Made by a program: the position numbers and the translations under genes. A stretch of 64,000 bases of DNA from Aquisphaera giovannonii (GTDB lineage Bacteria; Planctomycetota; Planctomycetia; Isosphaerales; Isosphaeraceae), in assembly GCF_008087625.1 (NCBI RefSeq), contig NZ_CP042998.1, forward strand, positions 62,001-126,000, written 5' to 3'. Below are positions 3,701 to 31,224 of this stretch, in pieces. The notes under the pieces are model-generated. The model did not search any database and had not been told where the DNA came from. It was given only the letters and a program-made list of their open reading frames with translations. Numbering within the stretch: position 1 is the first letter of the stretch; every line of letters begins with the position of its first letter.

Positions 3701-4693
3701 GTGAGAGCGTCCACGCCGTTCGCCTGCATCGTCATCCTGCTGATGCCGCTGGCCGCCGTCGCCGCGGGGCCGAGGCAGAAGGTCATCTTCGATTGCGACC
3801 TCGGCGGCGACATCGACGACGCCTTCGCGCTCTCCCTGCTCCTGAGCAGCCCGGAGTTCGAGGTCCTCGGCCTCGTCATGGACCACGGCAACACGACGAG
3901 GCGAGGGCAGGTCGCCGCTCGCCTGCTGTACGAGATGGGCCTGGAGAAGCAGATCCCCGTGGTGATCGGCCGGGCCACGCCGGCGGTCGTGGGCGAGGAC
4001 ACGGAGATCGCCGGCGACTCCAAGCAGTTCCTCTGGGGCAGGGGATTCGAGTCGTGGAAGCCCGCCTCGGCCGACGCCGCGGGCTTCCTCATCGAGAACA
4101 TACGCAAGTATCCCGGCGAGGTGATCCTGTTCACGGTGGGCCCCGTCTGCAACATCCAGGACGTGCTCCGTCGCGACCCCGGGGCGCTCAAGCAGGCGAA
4201 GCGTGTGATCGCGATGTTCGGCAGCTTCACCATGGGTTACGGCGGCCCCGGCACGAGGCCCGACGCCGAGTGGAACGTGCGGGCCGACGCGAGGGCCGGC
4301 CAGGCCCTGCTGGCGAGCGGGGCCAGGCTCACCCTCGCGGGCCTCGACACGACCACCATGGTGAAGCTACGCGAGGCCGACCGCACCCGCCTGCTCTACC
4401 GCAACTCCCCGCTCACCGACGCGCTCTGCGGCCTCTACATCCTCTGGCGGCAGGAAGGGGCGGGGCCCGATCCGACGCTCTTCGACGTCGTCCCCGTCGG
4501 CATGGTGCTCTGGCCCGACCTCTTCACCACCCGCCCCGCCCACGTCCGCGTCACCGAAAAGGGCTTCACCGAGCTCGTCGAGGGCGCCCCGCCGAACTGC
4601 GAGATCGGGGTGACGGTCCAGGCCGATGAGCTGGTGAAGCGGACGATGAACCGGTATCTCGAGCAGAACCTCATGCGGCCCCACGTGCCCTGA
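3701..4693 (+). CDS. Exported nucleoside hydrolase-like protein
   Basis: Predicted to be an inosine-uridine preferring nucleoside hydrolase family member, cleaving N-glycosidic bonds of nucleosides. The N-terminal Ca-binding Asp cluster is present as FDCDLGGDIDDAFAL, the GGDIDD variant of the family's DTDPGIDDA motif. A conserved MDHGNTTRRG segment and a second-half DAEWNVRADARAG region follow. Residues 1-22 form a signal peptide (hydrophobic CIVILLMPLAAVAAG), so it probably acts outside the cytoplasm. The start is GTG at 3701, because the ATG two bases upstream reads straight into TGA. Length 330 aa is normal for the family. It stands alone, convergent with pntB. Substrate cannot be read from the sequence. 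Confidence 0.85.
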   Translation: MRASTPFACIVILLMPLAAVAAGPRQKVIFDCDLGGDIDDAFALSLLLSSPEFEVLGLVMDHGNTTRRGQVAARLLYEMGLEKQIPVVIGRATPAVVGEDTEIAGDSKQFLWGRGFESWKPASADAAGFLIENIRKYPGEVILFTVGPVCNIQDVLRRDPGALKQAKRVIAMFGSFTMGYGGPGTRPDAEWNVRADARAGQALLASGARLTLAGLDTTTMVKLREADRTRLLYRNSPLTDALCGLYILWRQEGAGPDPTLFDVVPVGMVLWPDLFTTRPAHVRVTEKGFTELVEGAPPNCEIGVTVQADELVKRTMNRYLEQNLMRPHVP

Positions 4694-4813
4694 TGCGAAC
4701 TCGGGAAGATCATGATCGGCCGGCGCGGTCGCCGAACGGAGCCGGGCTCCTGCGGAGTCGTTCCCGGTCCGTCCCGGATGCACGGGTTGGCGGTCACTCG
4801 GGACGCGATCCGC

Positions 4814-6195
<1,382 letters not shown>

Positions 6196-6505: not shown

Positions 6506-7684
6506 TCACCCTCGGGGCTCGGCCGCGTCGGCCGGTAGTGAGAAGAACTCGCGCACCCGGGGCTGGACGATCTCGCCGCCGCGGGTCAGCAGCGTGTCGC
6601 GCGTGATCTCGTCGCCCGGGTCGATCCGGAGCGACCCTTCCTTGACCAGGTGGAGGAGGAAGGTGCTCAGGTTCCTCGCGTACATCTGGCTGGCGTGGTA
6701 GGGCACGGTGCCGGCGAGGTTGAACAGGCCGATGATCGTGACGCCGTGCGCCTGCGCGACCTCGCCCGGGCGGGTCAGCTCGCAGTTGCCGCCCCGCTCG
6801 GCGGCGAGGTCCACGATCACCGAGCCGGGGGCCATCGCGGCGACCATCTCGCCGGTGACCAGCACCGGGGCCTTCTTGCCCGGCACGACGGCGGTCGTCA
6901 CGACGACGTCGCTCTCGGCCACGACGCGGCCGAGGAGCTCGCGCTGGCGGCGGTAGAACTCCTCGTCCTGGGCCTTGGCGTAGCCCCGGGCGTCCTCCGC
7001 GTCCTTCACCTCGACGGGCAGCTCGACGAACCGGGCGCCCAGGCTCTGGACCTGCTCCTTCGCGGCCGGGCGCAGGTCGTAGGCGGAGGTCACCGCGCCG
7101 AGCCTCCGCGACGTGGCGATCGCCTGGAGCCCGGCCACGCCCGCGCCGATGACGAGCAGGCGCGCCGGGGTGATCGTCCCGGCCGCCGTGGTCAGCATCG
7201 GGAAGAAGCGGGGCAGCGAGTCGGCCGCCAGGAGGACCGCCTTGTAGCCGGCGATCGAGGCCATGGACGACAGCGCGTCCATGCTCTGGGCCCGCGTGAT
7301 CCGCGGCATCAGCTCCACGGAGAACGACGCGACGCCGCGGGCCGCGATCGCCTCGACCGCCCCCAGCGAGCCGAAGGGCCGGAGGAAGCCGATCAGCGCC
7401 TGCCCCTCGCGGAGCAGGGGGAGGTCCGCGTCGCCGTTGCGGTCGTTCGCCCCGTGGCAGAGGACCTGGACGACGACGTCGGCCGCGCCGAAGACCTCGC
7501 CACGCCCGGCCAGGACCCTCGCCCCCTTCGCGCGGAAGGCGTCGTCCGGGTATCCCGCCGCCTCGCCGGCGCCGGCCTCGACGACCACCTCGATGCCCGC
7601 CTTCGCCAGCCCCGGCACCGCCGCCGGCACGAGCGCCACCCGGCGCTCGCCTGGGTAGATCTCCCGAGGCACTCCGACGATCAT
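6506..7684 (-). CDS. pntAA: NAD(P) transhydrogenase alpha subunit, NAD-binding part
   Basis: 392-aa soluble domain I, binding NAD(H). It opens with the alanine-dehydrogenase/PNT N-terminal signature MIVGVPREIYPGERRVALVP and carries the Rossmann glycine motif LLVIGAGVAGLQAI near the middle, followed by GAVTSAYDLRPAAKEQV. It ends with the expected segment on NLSTFLLHLVKEG. First gene of the pntAA-pntAB-pntB operon. The upstream region toward the histidine kinase gene is AT-rich and probably carries divergent promoters. Confidence 0.96.
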   Translation of the reverse strand: MIVGVPREIYPGERRVALVPAAVPGLAKAGIEVVVEAGAGEAAGYPDDAFRAKGARVLAGRGEVFGAADVVVQVLCHGANDRNGDADLPLLREGQALIGFLRPFGSLGAVEAIAARGVASFSVELMPRITRAQSMDALSSMASIAGYKAVLLAADSLPRFFPMLTTAAGTITPARLLVIGAGVAGLQAIATSRRLGAVTSAYDLRPAAKEQVQSLGARFVELPVEVKDAEDARGYAKAQDEEFYRRQRELLGRVVAESDVVVTTAVVPGKKAPVLVTGEMVAAMAPGSVIVDLAAERGGNCELTRPGEVAQAHGVTIIGLFNLAGTVPYHASQMYARNLSTFLLHLVKEGSLRIDPGDEITRDTLLTRGGEIVQPRVREFFSLPADAAEPRG

Positions 7685-8368
7685 CCCCGCCCCCCGAATG
7701 GACCGCCCGCCGGACCAGGCATCGCGGCACCGTCCCGCATCACCAACCCCGCGCGTCGCATGACTCGCCCGCCGAGTTTATACGGCGCGGGGCATCGAGG
7801 GAATGGGCGGGTGCCGCCGTCGAGCCCATCGCCCCTCGGATCCGGCCGGCGACGCCCCCCGGCGGAACACCCCGGTCGATCGTCGCCGGGCCGGGGGCGT
7901 GGGGCGGCATCGCGGCCGATCACTCCCGCGGAGCGAGGGGCGTGCGACGCGGGTCGCGGACCGCCCCCGCGGCGGTCCGTCGCGCCGGCCGGCGGCGGCG
8001 GTGGCGCCACCCTCCCCACCACATCGCCCGACGCGAGGCGCGTCCCGGGGGCAACCTCCGCGCGGCGCCGCCCGGCACGCTTTTCTTGACAGACCCAACT
8101 CAAATTTGAATTTCTACTGGATTCTATTGTGCATTTTTTGATATAATTGAATTGTCGACGGGAAAGAGCCGAGTTGCCGAGCCCCCCCGGCGGGGGGCGC
8201 CGACGGGCGGTGTCGAGCCGCGGACGCGACCCCGGCGGCGGGGCGGGGGCCCGGCGGGGACCGGCGGCAGTGCGTGCCCCGGGCGTGGGGCGACGGGGGG
8301 AGATTTCTGGCGCATCGGACCTCCGGAGCGGCCGGGGGCGGCGGTCGCCTGACCTCGAGGGCTGGGCG
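7685..8368. promoter_or_regulatory. Divergent control region between pnt operon and HK-kaiB-kaiC operon
   Basis: A gene-free 684-bp stretch. Most is very GC-rich, but 8085-8155 is a sharply AT-rich island. It holds TTGACA at 8086-8091, the perfect palindrome TCAAATTTGA at 8100-8109 and an extended -10 TTTGATATAAT at 8137-8147 (TGN plus TATAAT) on the plus strand. No good -35 lies 16-18 bp before that -10, as is allowed for extended -10 promoters. Transcription from it would give a GC-rich leader of about 210 nt before the kinase ATG. The leader contains hairpin-prone runs such as CCCCCCGGCGGGGGG. Promoter identity is inference. Confidence 0.5.
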
Positions 8369-9906
<1,538 letters not shown>

Positions 9907-24959: not shown

Positions 24960-25226
24960 ATGAGCACCATCACGCTTTCCGATCCGGCCCGGTTCGCGCA
25001 GGCCATCCGCGACGTAGCCCGGGATGCCCACCAGCTGAGGAACGCGACGTCGCCGGCGTCCGCCCGGGGGCTATCCCGGCGGATCGAGTCGCTGGCCTCG
25101 GCGCTCGGCGATCGCCGCGACGGGCCGCTCGGCACGTGGCTGGACAACCTCGGGCGAGAAGTCCGGGCCGACGCGATCCGGCGGGCCTCGGCAGGCTCGC
25201 GCGCGGCGGCCTGCCTGTGTGCCTAA
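24960..25226 (+). CDS. Small protein of unknown function in AraC regulon
   Basis: 88 aa, starting [23 protein letters not shown] 24960 has a strong RBS (AGGAGGAGAT). Predicted mostly helical with Arg/Ala-rich amphipathic segments; no Cys pair, signal or known motif until the C-terminal AAACLCA. Its stop overlaps the candidate cupin start. Downstream of operator 1, so probably the first gene controlled by the AraC regulator. I do not recognise it. Confidence 0.6.
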
Positions 25227-25614
25227 CGCGCGGCGTGCTCGCTGCTCCGAGAAAGCCCCCACGGACGATGAGGAAGGGCCGGCCGACCGGTTCACCGGCA
25301 CGGTCCGCATCGTCCCGCTGCTCCGGCTGCACACCCCGGCCCGGCCGGCAGCGGCCGGCGTCACGTTCGAGCCGGGGGCCCTCACCGCCTGGCACACGCA
25401 ATCGCTGGGGCAGACTCTCCTCATCACGGCGGGGTGCGGTCGGGTCCAGCGCGAGGGTGGGCCGGTCGAGGAGGTCCTCCCCGGCGACGTCGTCTGGCCC
25501 CCGCCGGGGGCCTCCCCCACCACGGCCATGACGCACATCGCCATCCAGGAAGCCCTCGACGGCAAGGTGGTGGGCTGGATGGAGCACGCGAGCGACGAGG
25601 AGTACCGCGGCTGA
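25219..25614 (+). CDS. Cupin-domain protein with degenerate metal site
   Basis: 131 aa. Strongly resembles the small cupins with the pattern FTGTVRIxPLF, [32 protein letters not shown]. Here the first motif reads AWHTQSLGQ (second His replaced by Gln). The second reads [17 protein letters not shown], so the loop with the KHWHGA histidines is missing. Two metal-ligand clusters are therefore damaged, although the frame stays open to the family-typical end DEEYRG. The GTG start at 25219 lacks a good RBS and overlaps the preceding ORF. It may be a non-metal cupin or an eroding gene. Confidence 0.7.
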
Positions 25615-25636: not shown

Positions 25637-26572
25637 TCAGTTGTCGCGGTGGAGGACGTGGCAGCCGGTGCAATCCCTGGATACGGCGGAGAAGGCCGAG
25701 TCGGCCGCCCGTCGCGACGCATCTCCGGGCCTGTCCGCAAGCCCTTGAAGGGCCCGACTCAGGGAGTCGGCGTGGGCCCCGGCCGCTTCCAGCTCGCGGA
25801 CGAACCCCTCGCCCCGGTGTCGGGCCTCGTCGAGCCGCGCGGCCTCGCGGAAGAGCTCGGCGAGCTGGAGGGCCTCGTGCGATGGATCGACGTCGGGGTG
25901 GCCGGCCGGTGCCCGGAATCCGGCCTTCTGCACGGCCTTGAGGCGGTCCCAGCGGCCGTCGACGCGGACCATCATGTCGACCAGCAGCGGGACCTTGGCC
26001 CGCTCCGGGAAGTCCGTCCCGGCCCGCTCCAGCTCCTCGGCGGTCGGTGCGGCGAAGCCTCGCGCCGCCTCGTAGAGCCCGCGGTATTCCGGCGCCGTGC
26101 CCGCCTTCTCGAGCCAGGAGAGGGCCTGCTCGCGGGTCCAGGCCTCGTTCGCCAGGCCGCAGACCGCGACGGCGGCGGGCCCGCGATGCTTGCCGTGGTG
26201 GCAATGCACGAACGCGGGGCCAGGCAGCGTGCGTGCGGCCTTGATGATGCGGACCGCCTGGTCGCGGGGCACCCCGTCGTAGCCGATGGGCAGGTGGACA
26301 TATCGGATGCCGAACCTGCGGGCCGTCTCGACGTCTGGGATTGCCCCGTCGACGCTGATGACCGTCCTGACGCCCAGCGCCTTGAGTGCCGAGAACGCCT
26401 CCTCGCCACGCGGTTCGCCTCCGCTGTACAGGCCCGGGCCCAGGCGGAAGGCGTTCTCGATCCCCGGCAGCTCGAGCCGCTCGGGCGGTGCCCCCCCGGC
26501 GGAGGCGGCGAGCATCACGCCGACCAGCAATGAGCCGACGCAACGCCCCGCGCACGTGCTCCTCGTCGTCAC
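25637..26572 (-). CDS. Exported DSP-type phosphatase fused to C-terminal cytochrome c'-like domain
   Basis: 311 aa. GTG 26572 follows AGGAGG and begins a signal peptide (GSLLVGVMLAASAGGAPP). The middle (about 35-190) is a dual-specificity/tyrosine-phosphatase-like fold with catalytic loop FVHCHHGKHRG, Cys124-x5-Arg130. The last ~100 residues are helical and end in C301-T-G-C304-H305, a heme c attachment site nine bases of residues from the C-terminus region, as in cytochrome c' four-helix bundles. Export and heme attachment fit a periplasmic location. No partner is obvious; it is flanked by the AraC regulon but on the other strand. The domain pairing is unusual. Confidence 0.82.
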   Translation of the reverse strand: MTTRSTCAGRCVGSLLVGVMLAASAGGAPPERLELPGIENAFRLGPGLYSGGEPRGEEAFSALKALGVRTVISVDGAIPDVETARRFGIRYVHLPIGYDGVPRDQAVRIIKAARTLPGPAFVHCHHGKHRGPAAVAVCGLANEAWTREQALSWLEKAGTAPEYRGLYEAARGFAAPTAEELERAGTDFPERAKVPLLVDMMVRVDGRWDRLKAVQKAGFRAPAGHPDVDPSHEALQLAELFREAARLDEARHRGEGFVRELEAAGAHADSLSRALQGLADRPGDASRRAADSAFSAVSRDCTGCHVLHRDN

Positions 26573-26815
26573 TCTCCCCGCCTCCTGAAAAGACGGCCGA
26601 TGACCTGCCAAGATGGGCCCCTGCGGCACGGGCGTGATCATCCCCCGGCCGCGGGCGGATCCTCGCCGCCGCGAACGATGATAGCGGATGACGAGATCGG
26701 GCGGAGCATGGCGGCGCGACTCTGTCGGGGCCGATCCTCAAGATCGGGGCGCAACATCTTCGTCCTCGCCTCCTCTCAGGACGGCGAGCTCCTGACCGGC
26801 ACGTCATTCCGCCTG
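26573..26815. other. Divergent intergenic region before promoter 2
   Basis: 243 bp between the phosphatase-cytochrome gene and the second AraC-type promoter. No gene. It must contain the minus-strand promoter for the phosphatase gene, but I cannot place it. Confidence 0.3.
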
Positions 26816-28266: not shown

Positions 28267-28650
28267 ATGGAGGACGAGCGTCCCGGAACCACGCACAAGA
28301 CCATTCTGAACGTTGACAACCACACGCTCCGTGACCTCTGGATTAAAATCTCGGCGGACGAGGAACACACTGAAGGGCCACGGCAAGTCAACAACGGCCA
28401 GTCGATTTCGTGTGATTCAGACAAGGTCAGGTTCGGAAACGCTGCCAGCTACCACATCGATGTTTGGAGGAACGATAACGGGCATCAAGGTGGACACATA
28501 GGAGGATACGACACGGGAGTACGCTTCAACGGGGCAGGGTTCGACGACACTGATGAACTCGTTGTCGTCACAGTCGGTGGCAAGACGCATCTCCAGGCGT
28601 TGTCGCAAAGGAAGGCGGGAGAGGTGGTCGGCGAGATCATCCTGGCGTAG
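28267..28650 (+). CDS. Orphan protein, paralogue A of the DNH-RNDNG family
   Basis: 127 aa, ATG 28267 with GGAGA upstream. No signal peptide or membrane segment. The core shares a clear pattern with the protein at 29255: V/I-DNH-T/S-L-x-DL, then DS, GN-x-A-x-Y, V-x-RNDNG-x-x-G and IG. The alternation of polar and apolar residues suggests a beta-sandwich. I do not recognise the family. Base composition is visibly lower in GC than flanking operons. No operon partner within 600 bases. Confidence 0.7.
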   Translation: MEDERPGTTHKTILNVDNHTLRDLWIKISADEEHTEGPRQVNNGQSISCDSDKVRFGNAASYHIDVWRNDNGHQGGHIGGYDTGVRFNGAGFDDTDELVVVTVGGKTHLQALSQRKAGEVVGEIILA

Positions 28651-29254: not shown

Positions 29255-29680
29255 ATGGTAGCTCAGACTGTAGACGCCGTGCGAGAAGAGCCTGTGCGGA
29301 GCGACATTGACCGAGGCCGGCTGGAGGACTTCAATCGGGGCGTTCGTGCGAAGCTGACCATCGACAACCACTCGTTAACTGACCTCCACGTCCATTGGAC
29401 TGGCGATGTTGACGAAGACGACAAGTGGGACTTCCTCCCTCATGGTCACAGTGCAACCCATGACTCACGAAGGGTCGACCCCGGCAACAAGGCGACGTAT
29501 GAGCTCAGGGTGTATCGAAACGACAATGGCAAGCCGGGAGCCCAAATCGGCGATGCCTTCTACATCAAGGTCGGGGGAGGTCTTGCTGACCTTGCTACAC
29601 TCGCTCGGTCCGGCGACTACCTTGGATATGTGCTGGCATCAGCATCCGCTAACATTCTCATCATTGGGCTTCTCGGCTAG
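29255..29680 (+). CDS. Orphan protein, paralogue B of the DNH-RNDNG family
   Basis: 141 aa, ATG 29255 with GGAGAG upstream. Core residues about 34-105 align with the 28267 protein: LTIDNHSLTDLHVHW, SRRVDPGNKATYELRVYRN and DNGKPGAQIGD. It differs by a longer acidic N-terminus and a hydrophobic C-terminal end (YVLASASANILIIGLLG) that could insert in a membrane. No known family recognised. The I-x-N, W-x-F-L-P and GN-x-A-x-Y pattern is loosely like small pore-forming or carbohydrate-binding beta-sandwiches; that likeness is unproven. Confidence 0.7.
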   Translation: MVAQTVDAVREEPVRSDIDRGRLEDFNRGVRAKLTIDNHSLTDLHVHWTGDVDEDDKWDFLPHGHSATHDSRRVDPGNKATYELRVYRNDNGKPGAQIGDAFYIKVGGGLADLATLARSGDYLGYVLASASANILIIGLLG

Positions 29681-30249: not shown

Positions 30250-31224
30250 ATGACTACCGATTCTCGCTCGCTCGTGGCAACTACCGAGCGTTTCGCCCAG
30301 TACCTCGACCCCGAGTCGGGAGTCGTGACGAAGCCGGAGGGAGAAGGGTGGGACGACTTCTATGGCGATGCAGTATGGCGTTCCTCGTGGCTCTTCGCCT
30401 CTCTCCTCGCCATCCGGAGCGGGGAGCCTGCGACATACGAACGGCTGCAACGGGAGCAAGGCCTCGACGTGGTACAGGGCGAGCATTTTCTTCGATTCTT
30501 CCGCGACCACTGCACGGGCGGTGATGAGTGGAAGATTCCCAAGAATGACTCTCAAAGATTTTCAGGTGACCAGCTTGCTCCGCTGTTGTACTTGGTTTCG
30601 TCTGTTTATGCGTACGGTTCGGACGCCGCCAAGGCGGTCGCCAGGGATTTGCTGCAAAGACTTATCGGTCTCGACGAACGAATAGGAGCTCTTTCTAGTT
30701 CATCCTCCGGAACGATTCGAGATAATCAGAGGTACGTAATCGACATCAATTGTCGCATGTACGATATTGATTACCTCAGCGGACCGAGGAGGGACGTCTG
30801 CAAAGGGTCGTTCTCCGCCGCGTTGAAGGCGAACAACTTTATGGCCCAGCTTCCCTGGGAAGAGCTGGCGACGATGGACGACTACTCCGTCTTCAACGCA
30901 CTCGCCGTCGTTTCTGTTGCATGCGTCAAGTGGGGCAAGGATGACGACGATGTCGACGCGTGGCGGTCAAATTACCGACTTCACGCCGACCGGGGCTGGG
31001 GTCCATCCTTCCGCATCGTCGCGGGTCGGTCGCTGGAAGATTCATCGATAGAGGACTATTATACGGCCCATATCACCCGGGAAATGGACAACGACATTAT
31101 CATGGCTCAAAGACCACACAGGTACCTGAAGGGTGATTTCGGCCCACAACTGAAAGGAGGGCCTGGACAGTGGCTCGTGCTTGACTACGTCATCCTCAAA
31201 GGTTTACGGCTTATCTGGGGATAG
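30250..31224 (+). CDS. Orphan 324-aa soluble protein
   Basis: Starts MTTDSRSLVATTERFAQYLD at ATG 30250. Largely helical by pattern, with repeated Trp/Tyr/Asp-rich segments (WDDFYGDAVWRSSWLFASLL, SGDQLAPLLYLVSSVYAYG, YVIDINCRMYDIDYLSGP), which would suit an all-alpha toroid. No signal peptide, clear catalytic motif or metal site. It is the largest gene of the low-GC island and is not recognised. Neighbours give no function. Confidence 0.65.
   Translation: MTTDSRSLVATTERFAQYLDPESGVVTKPEGEGWDDFYGDAVWRSSWLFASLLAIRSGEPATYERLQREQGLDVVQGEHFLRFFRDHCTGGDEWKIPKNDSQRFSGDQLAPLLYLVSSVYAYGSDAAKAVARDLLQRLIGLDERIGALSSSSSGTIRDNQRYVIDINCRMYDIDYLSGPRRDVCKGSFSAALKANNFMAQLPWEELATMDDYSVFNALAVVSVACVKWGKDDDDVDAWRSNYRLHADRGWGPSFRIVAGRSLEDSSIEDYYTAHITREMDNDIIMAQRPHRYLKGDFGPQLKGGPGQWLVLDYVILKGLRLIWG

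Follow-up and report, generated by a model that had tools for sequence, protein, structure and literature searches.

A predicted exported protein of Planctomycetota, Verrucomicrobiota and Lentisphaerota that joins a Cys-x5-Arg phosphatase fold to a class II cytochrome c-type bundle

A gene of Aquisphaera giovannonii, contained in a stretch of 64,000 nucleotides (referred to as the window), encodes a predicted exported protein in which a domain of the DSP/PTP fold with a Cys-x5-Arg loop is followed by a four-helix bundle that carries a CxxCH motif. Sequence comparison and structural modelling give good support for the identities of the two domains and for their constant association. As far as the searched libraries show, this architecture is a new, undescribed combination of known parts; no curated family or paper describing it was found in Pfam, NCBIfam or full-text literature searches. 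An earlier note, made from the DNA sequence alone, had proposed such a fusion of a Cys-x5-Arg domain to a cytochrome c'-like domain, and its proposal was borne out by the motifs, a two-domain AlphaFold2 model and profile matches.

Results

Gene, start codon and predicted export

The reading frame was found exactly where the earlier note had placed it, at positions 25637-26572 of the minus strand, and encodes 311 amino acids plus stop. Its GTG start was judged to be well placed because the sequence AGGAGG precedes it by 8 nt; an in-frame upstream ATG at 26641 is less likely to be the start. The features of the gene and its product are compiled in Table 1.

Table 1. Features of the gene and the encoded protein, and a gene neighbourhood shared by two relatives.
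Feature	Position	Strand	Remarks
Complete gene	25637..26572	-	311 aa + stop, GTG start; full-length fused relatives at 29 to 71% identity
Shine-Dalgarno-like AGGAGG	26581..26586	-	8 nt upstream of GTG, read directly from sequence
Predicted export signal, residues 1 to about 27, cleavage site approximate	26492..26572	-	Hydrophobic segment
DSP/PTP-fold domain, residues about 30-170	26063..26485	-	AlphaFold2; TpbA 4r0s_A Z 17.8, rmsd 2.7, 150 aligned; profile match to TpbA 3e-11
D75, acidic residue specific to the fused clade	26348..26350	-	D in 86/87 fused, R in 19/36 stand-alone
General-acid (WPD-equivalent) loop H93-L-P-I-G-Y98-D99-G100	26273..26296	-	H93, P95, Y98 87/87; D99 62/87
Catalytic-type loop H123-C124-H-H-G-K-H129-R130	26183..26206	-	HC-x5-R
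Inter-domain linker, residues 158-167 (GT...Y.GLY), conserved	26072..26101	-	G158 81/87, T159 82/87, Y163 86/87, G165 86/87, L166 87/87
Class II cytochrome c (cyt c'/b562-type) four-helix bundle, residues about 194-310	25643..25993	-	AlphaFold2, domain alone: pLDDT 95.4, pTM 0.86
M201, candidate distal axial heme ligand, helix A	25970..25972	-	87/87 rows
CTGCH, C301-H305, putative heme c attachment and proximal ligand	25658..25672	-	CxxCH 87/87; 6 residues from C-terminus
R309, after CTGCH	25646-25648	-	86/87
Common neighbourhood in two Planctomycetota MAGs	L017:434-2617 and 3783-5915; L018:3454-5628 and 7003-9156

In the window the gene stands by itself, flanked by a small cupin-like ORF and by an aldo/keto reductase gene of the opposite strand; an AraC-type regulator is encoded further out. 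The small ORF (25219-25614, plus strand) resembles a cupin by eye but gave no match in Pfam, and it may be a degraded gene or have a misassigned start. Two adjacent small proteins of 127 and 141 aa (28267-28650 and 29255-29680, plus strand) are paralogues with 38% identity over 79 aa, again with no Pfam match, and a 324-aa ORF (30250-31224, plus strand) had no Pfam match at E 0.001.

A crude scan of 47 relatives revealed a hydrophobic N-terminal segment in 35 and a lipobox-like motif in six more (41/47). Among the six proteins with neither, L047 and L049 have short Cys-containing starts that appear lipoprotein-like by eye, and the other four are probably mis-called starts. Together with the hydrophobic N-terminus of the window protein, these predictions agree with the export assumed in the earlier note, and the predicted location is periplasmic, with lipid anchoring in some relatives.

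Structural model

AlphaFold2 was run on the mature protein with a 31-row family alignment as input. The resulting model (pLDDT 96.9, pTM 0.90) comprises an alpha/beta domain (mature residues about 1-157) followed by four long helices. Structure prediction, one of the checks suggested in the earlier note, thus returned a DSP fold plus a four-helix bundle, and the CTGCH motif, which according to the same note might have turned out to lack a helical bundle, has one in the models and in fold comparison. As a fold search with the whole model returned the DSP half only, the bundle was modelled separately.

Phosphatase-fold domain

The window protein matches the Pfam family PTP-SAK below threshold (residues 52-156, E 6e-4), a match that recurs in 30 of 31 family members (best 3e-7); an NCBIfam scan of the protein gave no match of weight. 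In fold comparison the N-terminal domain scored best against TpbA (Z 17.8), followed by DUSP23 (Z 17.6), Siw14 (Z 16.8) and AtPFA-DSP1 (Z 16.7), with many DSPs at Z 14-18. The DUF442 and BLH-phosphatase families are also among the scoring relatives, with weak profile and fold similarity.

Within the loop, C124, G127 and R130 are conserved in all 87 fused rows of the family alignment, H123 and H129 in 86, H126 in 85 and H125 in 77 (F in nine). The fused clade is marked by the signature D75, H93, Y98 and HC[HF]HGxHR[GS][PA]. Positions that divide it from stand-alone relatives are D75, H93, Y98, H125, H129 (D in 17/36 stand-alone proteins) and G131-P132 (T-G in stand-alone proteins). The residue D99, which is present in the window protein and aligned to the general acid Asp105 of TpbA (PMC4409338), is absent in 25/87 rows (about 29%). 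Directly after R130 the window protein has Gly and hence lacks the usual, though not universal, Ser/Thr; at this position the 87 rows contain G (74), S (10) or A (3), and Gly/Ala therefore accounts for 77 of them (about 89%), while 29 of 36 stand-alone relatives have T. Given the missing D99 in the one set of rows and Gly/Ala in the other, 'phosphatase' may be too narrow a name. Judged by sequence, three departures could leave room for non-hydrolytic redox chemistry: the Gly that follows R130, D75 as a new acidic residue, and Y98, which is invariant.

One fused member, L071, has a degenerate loop (TCETGRDR) in which C and R are retained, and its CxxCH is intact. It is possibly a heme protein on the way to losing the phosphatase-type pocket.

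Cytochrome-type bundle and putative heme ligands

The only invariant bundle residue in the 87 rows beyond C301, C304 and H305 is M201. The Pfam family Cytochrom_C_2 matched the window protein below threshold (residues 258-306, E 0.02) and recurs in 29 of 31 family members (best 7e-7). In fold comparison the bundle was most similar to NaxLS of Kuenenia (Z 13.0, rmsd 2.5, 104 aligned), followed by cytochromes c' (Z 10.8-12.4) and cb562 (Z about 11). Four-helix bundles reach Z 13 by chance, and the Foldseek E-values for the bundle are weak (0.1-2), so that weight is carried by the independent sequence matches: the family profile matched solved cytochromes c' at E 2e-6, in a region that comprises the last two helices and contains CxxCH.

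In cytochrome b562, Met7 and His102 serve as the axial ligands of the heme. If the end helices are ungapped, the structural ranges obtained against cb562 (17->1, 131->106) superimpose M201 (residue 23 of the model) on Met7 and H305 (residue 127) on His102. The equivalence of M201 and Met7 comes from these ranges alone, as the profile alignment of cytochrome b562 onto the heme domain reaches the last helices only. Since the invariant M201 falls at the axial Met7 position, the model favours, with moderate confidence, a six-coordinate heme of the electron-transfer type over a gas-binding one. In two members of the family, L128 and L129, the last two bundle helices are separated by about 20 inserted residues.

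Distribution and descent of the fused family

A scan of 84,980 species genomes, in which loop and CxxCH peptides served as patterns, yielded 30 relatives, all of them recorded as Planctomycetota, Verrucomicrobiota or Lentisphaerota. Further relatives came from full-length searches, which covered near genomes as well as 294 genomes of Planctomycetota. By E-value, the fused form is present in about 119 of these 294 genomes (about 40%), i.e., in 136 with any match minus 17 with an N-domain match only. The final alignment comprised 87 fused rows, 85 of them distinct, and the search for the same fusion elsewhere, also suggested in the earlier note, was thereby answered. All 87 rows share C124, G127, R130, H93, P95, Y98, M201, C301, C304 and H305. 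As a search by loop and CxxCH patterns could bias the family, conservation was re-tested on the 57 rows from the full-length search, which is independent of these patterns; the outcome was the same, and search bias was rejected as the source of conservation. Likewise, chance co-occurrence of the motifs was rejected, given that the loop Cys, the Arg and CxxCH are retained in all 85 distinct fused relatives.

CxxCH was found in none of 36 sampled stand-alone relatives, whose loop is mostly HCxxGxxRTG. Some matches ended ahead of CxxCH and were apparent exceptions: G165 and G334 have the motif beyond an insert, in G153 the contig ends before the motif would be reached, and G150 has no CxxCH in its frame, possibly owing to a frameshift. 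The match in G281 begins inside the gene, yet it has CxxCH. In a tree of the N-domain the fused proteins cluster, and a single fused clade was not rejected (p-AU 0.92). At or inside the edge of this clade lie the heme-less L051 and L052, which retain part of the loop signature and may, from their sequences, represent either a pre-fusion form or secondary loss. L052 has an HCHHGKHRG loop and, apparently, a tandem duplicate of the domain from which the loop is missing.

Gene neighbourhoods

No neighbour pointing to a substrate or partner recurs widely across the relatives examined. Genes for a sulfatase, SCO1-SenC, a thioredoxin-like protein, PPK2, ApbE, cytochrome c552 and cytochrome c assembly were seen one to three times each, and neither sulfur nor arsenic genes are recurrent neighbours at the relatives' loci examined. 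The homologue of Planctomyces sp. SH-PL62, the one annotated copy that was looked up ('hypothetical protein'), is located on a 98-kb plasmid, where a DUF3365 gene lies about 1 kb away and genes for cytochrome c oxidase some 2 kb away. The clearest common neighbourhood was seen in two Planctomycetota MAGs, in which the gene lies between genes for a GreA/GreB-domain protein and a thioredoxin-NHL repeat protein (Table 1).

Discussion

Proposed function and alternatives

The reading that we favour, though at somewhat less than an even chance, is an exported Cys-dependent enzyme of DSP fold that cleaves oxyanions or phosphoanhydrides, and in which the redox state of the protein's own c-type heme is linked to the reaction or to the state of the Cys. 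In such an enzyme, heme c attached to CTGCH would have H305 and M201 as its ligands and form a low-spin, six-coordinate centre for electron transfer. The substrate, an oxyanion or phosphoanhydride, would be bound by R130 and the amides of the loop and attacked by C124, and H129 would act as general base by analogy to His155 of PFA-DSP1; if H129 has this role, D99 would be helpful but optional. The phosphoanhydride or a related oxyanion is proposed as substrate because H129 (86/87) is equivalent to that His155. Finally, the heme would be coupled to the Cys pocket, most simply by a heme redox state that sets conformation or by electron exchange with the catalytic Cys, and turnover would follow the periplasmic redox state. 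Sequence and model provide in favour of this reading an intact Cys-x5-Arg pocket, a bundle with CxxCH, two halves that co-occur across the clade and a remodelled, clade-specific active site. Against it stand the Gly/Ala after R130, a departure from the usual Ser/Thr, and the lack of a conserved neighbour as a clue to the substrate; also, since ordinary PTPs do without a heme, the one here might serve only for docking or as an electron carrier.

It is possible, if rather doubtful, that the Cys-x5-Arg pocket is no longer that of a phosphatase and binds another oxyanion or sulfur species (e.g., of the thiosulfate, persulfide, arsenate or selenite type) to or from which the heme transfers electrons, making the protein a redox enzyme on a phosphatase fold. 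The variable D99, the replacement of S/T after the Arg and the new, (nearly) invariant D75, Y98 and H93 fit this idea, as do the DUF442 and BLH-phosphatase families among the scoring relatives, which include sulfur-transfer enzymes. Nor would plain hydrolysis readily explain a heme of the electron-transfer type. However, the loop is of the CX5R type and ends in GKHR, as in active phosphoanhydride phosphatases, a PTP without general acid can still hydrolyse (PMC9038691), and sulfur or arsenic genes do not recur as neighbours at the loci examined. A broader idea, to which we assign a low probability, is that of a phosphatase loop turned redox active site: a conserved class of exported enzymes in the PVC bacteria, with electrons passing between the Cys-x5-Arg oxyanion pocket and a low-spin heme c of the same protein, and with a sulfur, metalloid or phospho-oxyanion as substrate. 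If the bundle were instead a docking or electron-carrier unit without influence on an ordinary TpbA-like phosphatase of periplasmic phosphoproteins, this would suit the closest solved relative, TpbA, which dephosphorylates the periplasmic domain of TpbB (PMC4409338). We consider this unlikely, as the fusion was accompanied by a change of the active-site signature and as loop and heme occur together in nearly all members, the two heme-less near relatives L051 and L052 lying at or inside the clade edge. The gas-sensing phosphatase envisaged in the earlier note, which would be switched by binding of NO or CO to a five-coordinate heme of the cytochrome c' type, appears still more improbable. The bundle does score against cytochromes c' by profile and fold, and these proteins bind NO and CO (PMC5368077); yet an invariant Met at the b562 axial-ligand position predicts a filled sixth site, even though a labile Met could still be displaced. 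Of the two options in that note, a redox-linked enzyme is thus the better half.

Significance

To our knowledge, no Cys-based phosphatase with its own redox cofactor has been described, and full-text searches for phosphatase-heme fusions gave nothing relevant. Cys-based phosphatases are switched off by oxidation of their Cys. The fusion suggests a phosphatase-like active site that works together with electron transfer. Widespread and strictly conserved as it is, it makes directly testable whether heme redox can run or gate a phosphatase fold, and would give a first function to a protein present in roughly 40% of the sampled Planctomycetota genomes.

Comparison with known systems

TpbA of P. 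aeruginosa (PA3885, PDB 4R0S) shares with the window protein an exported DSP fold and an HC-x5-R loop (HCKHGNNR), and its general acid, Asp105, aligns with D99. In contrast to the fused family, it has no heme domain, a canonical RT after the loop and none of the D75/Y98/H125/H129 signature. The inositol pyrophosphatases of the PFA-DSP/Siw14 group (AtPFA-DSP1, 7MOx entries; Siw14, 6BYF) resemble the window protein in the G-K-H-R end of the loop and in fold (Z 16-17), but are eukaryotic and devoid of heme, and have Thr after the Arg, where the window protein has Gly, as well as other second and third loop residues. The loop of AtPFA-DSP1 contains Cys150, Lys151, Arg152, Lys154, His155, Arg156 and Thr157; the enzyme lacks a general acid, His155 substitutes as general acid/base, and its mutation costs 95-98% of the activity (PMC9038691). 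Substrates of the fission yeast Siw14 are PPi, polyphosphate and inositol pyrophosphates (PMC10653929).

With regard to the second half of the protein, cytochromes c' (Pfam PF01322, Cytochrom_C_2) likewise consist of a four-helix bundle with CxxCH near the C-terminus. Known members are small and stand-alone, whereas the bundle of the fused family lies behind a DSP domain and has an invariant Met near the start of helix A. Cytochromes c' proper contain a five-coordinate heme without distal protein ligand, an assignment against which M201 argues. Cytochrome b562 and the low-spin c556-type class II cytochromes agree with the family in having a Met near the start of helix A and a His near the end of helix D, although cytochrome b562 is a stand-alone protein with non-covalently bound heme. 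NaxLS (Kusta0087/0088), which comes from the planctomycete Kuenenia and is the best structural match of the bundle, differs in being a complex of two small cytochromes with no enzyme domain.
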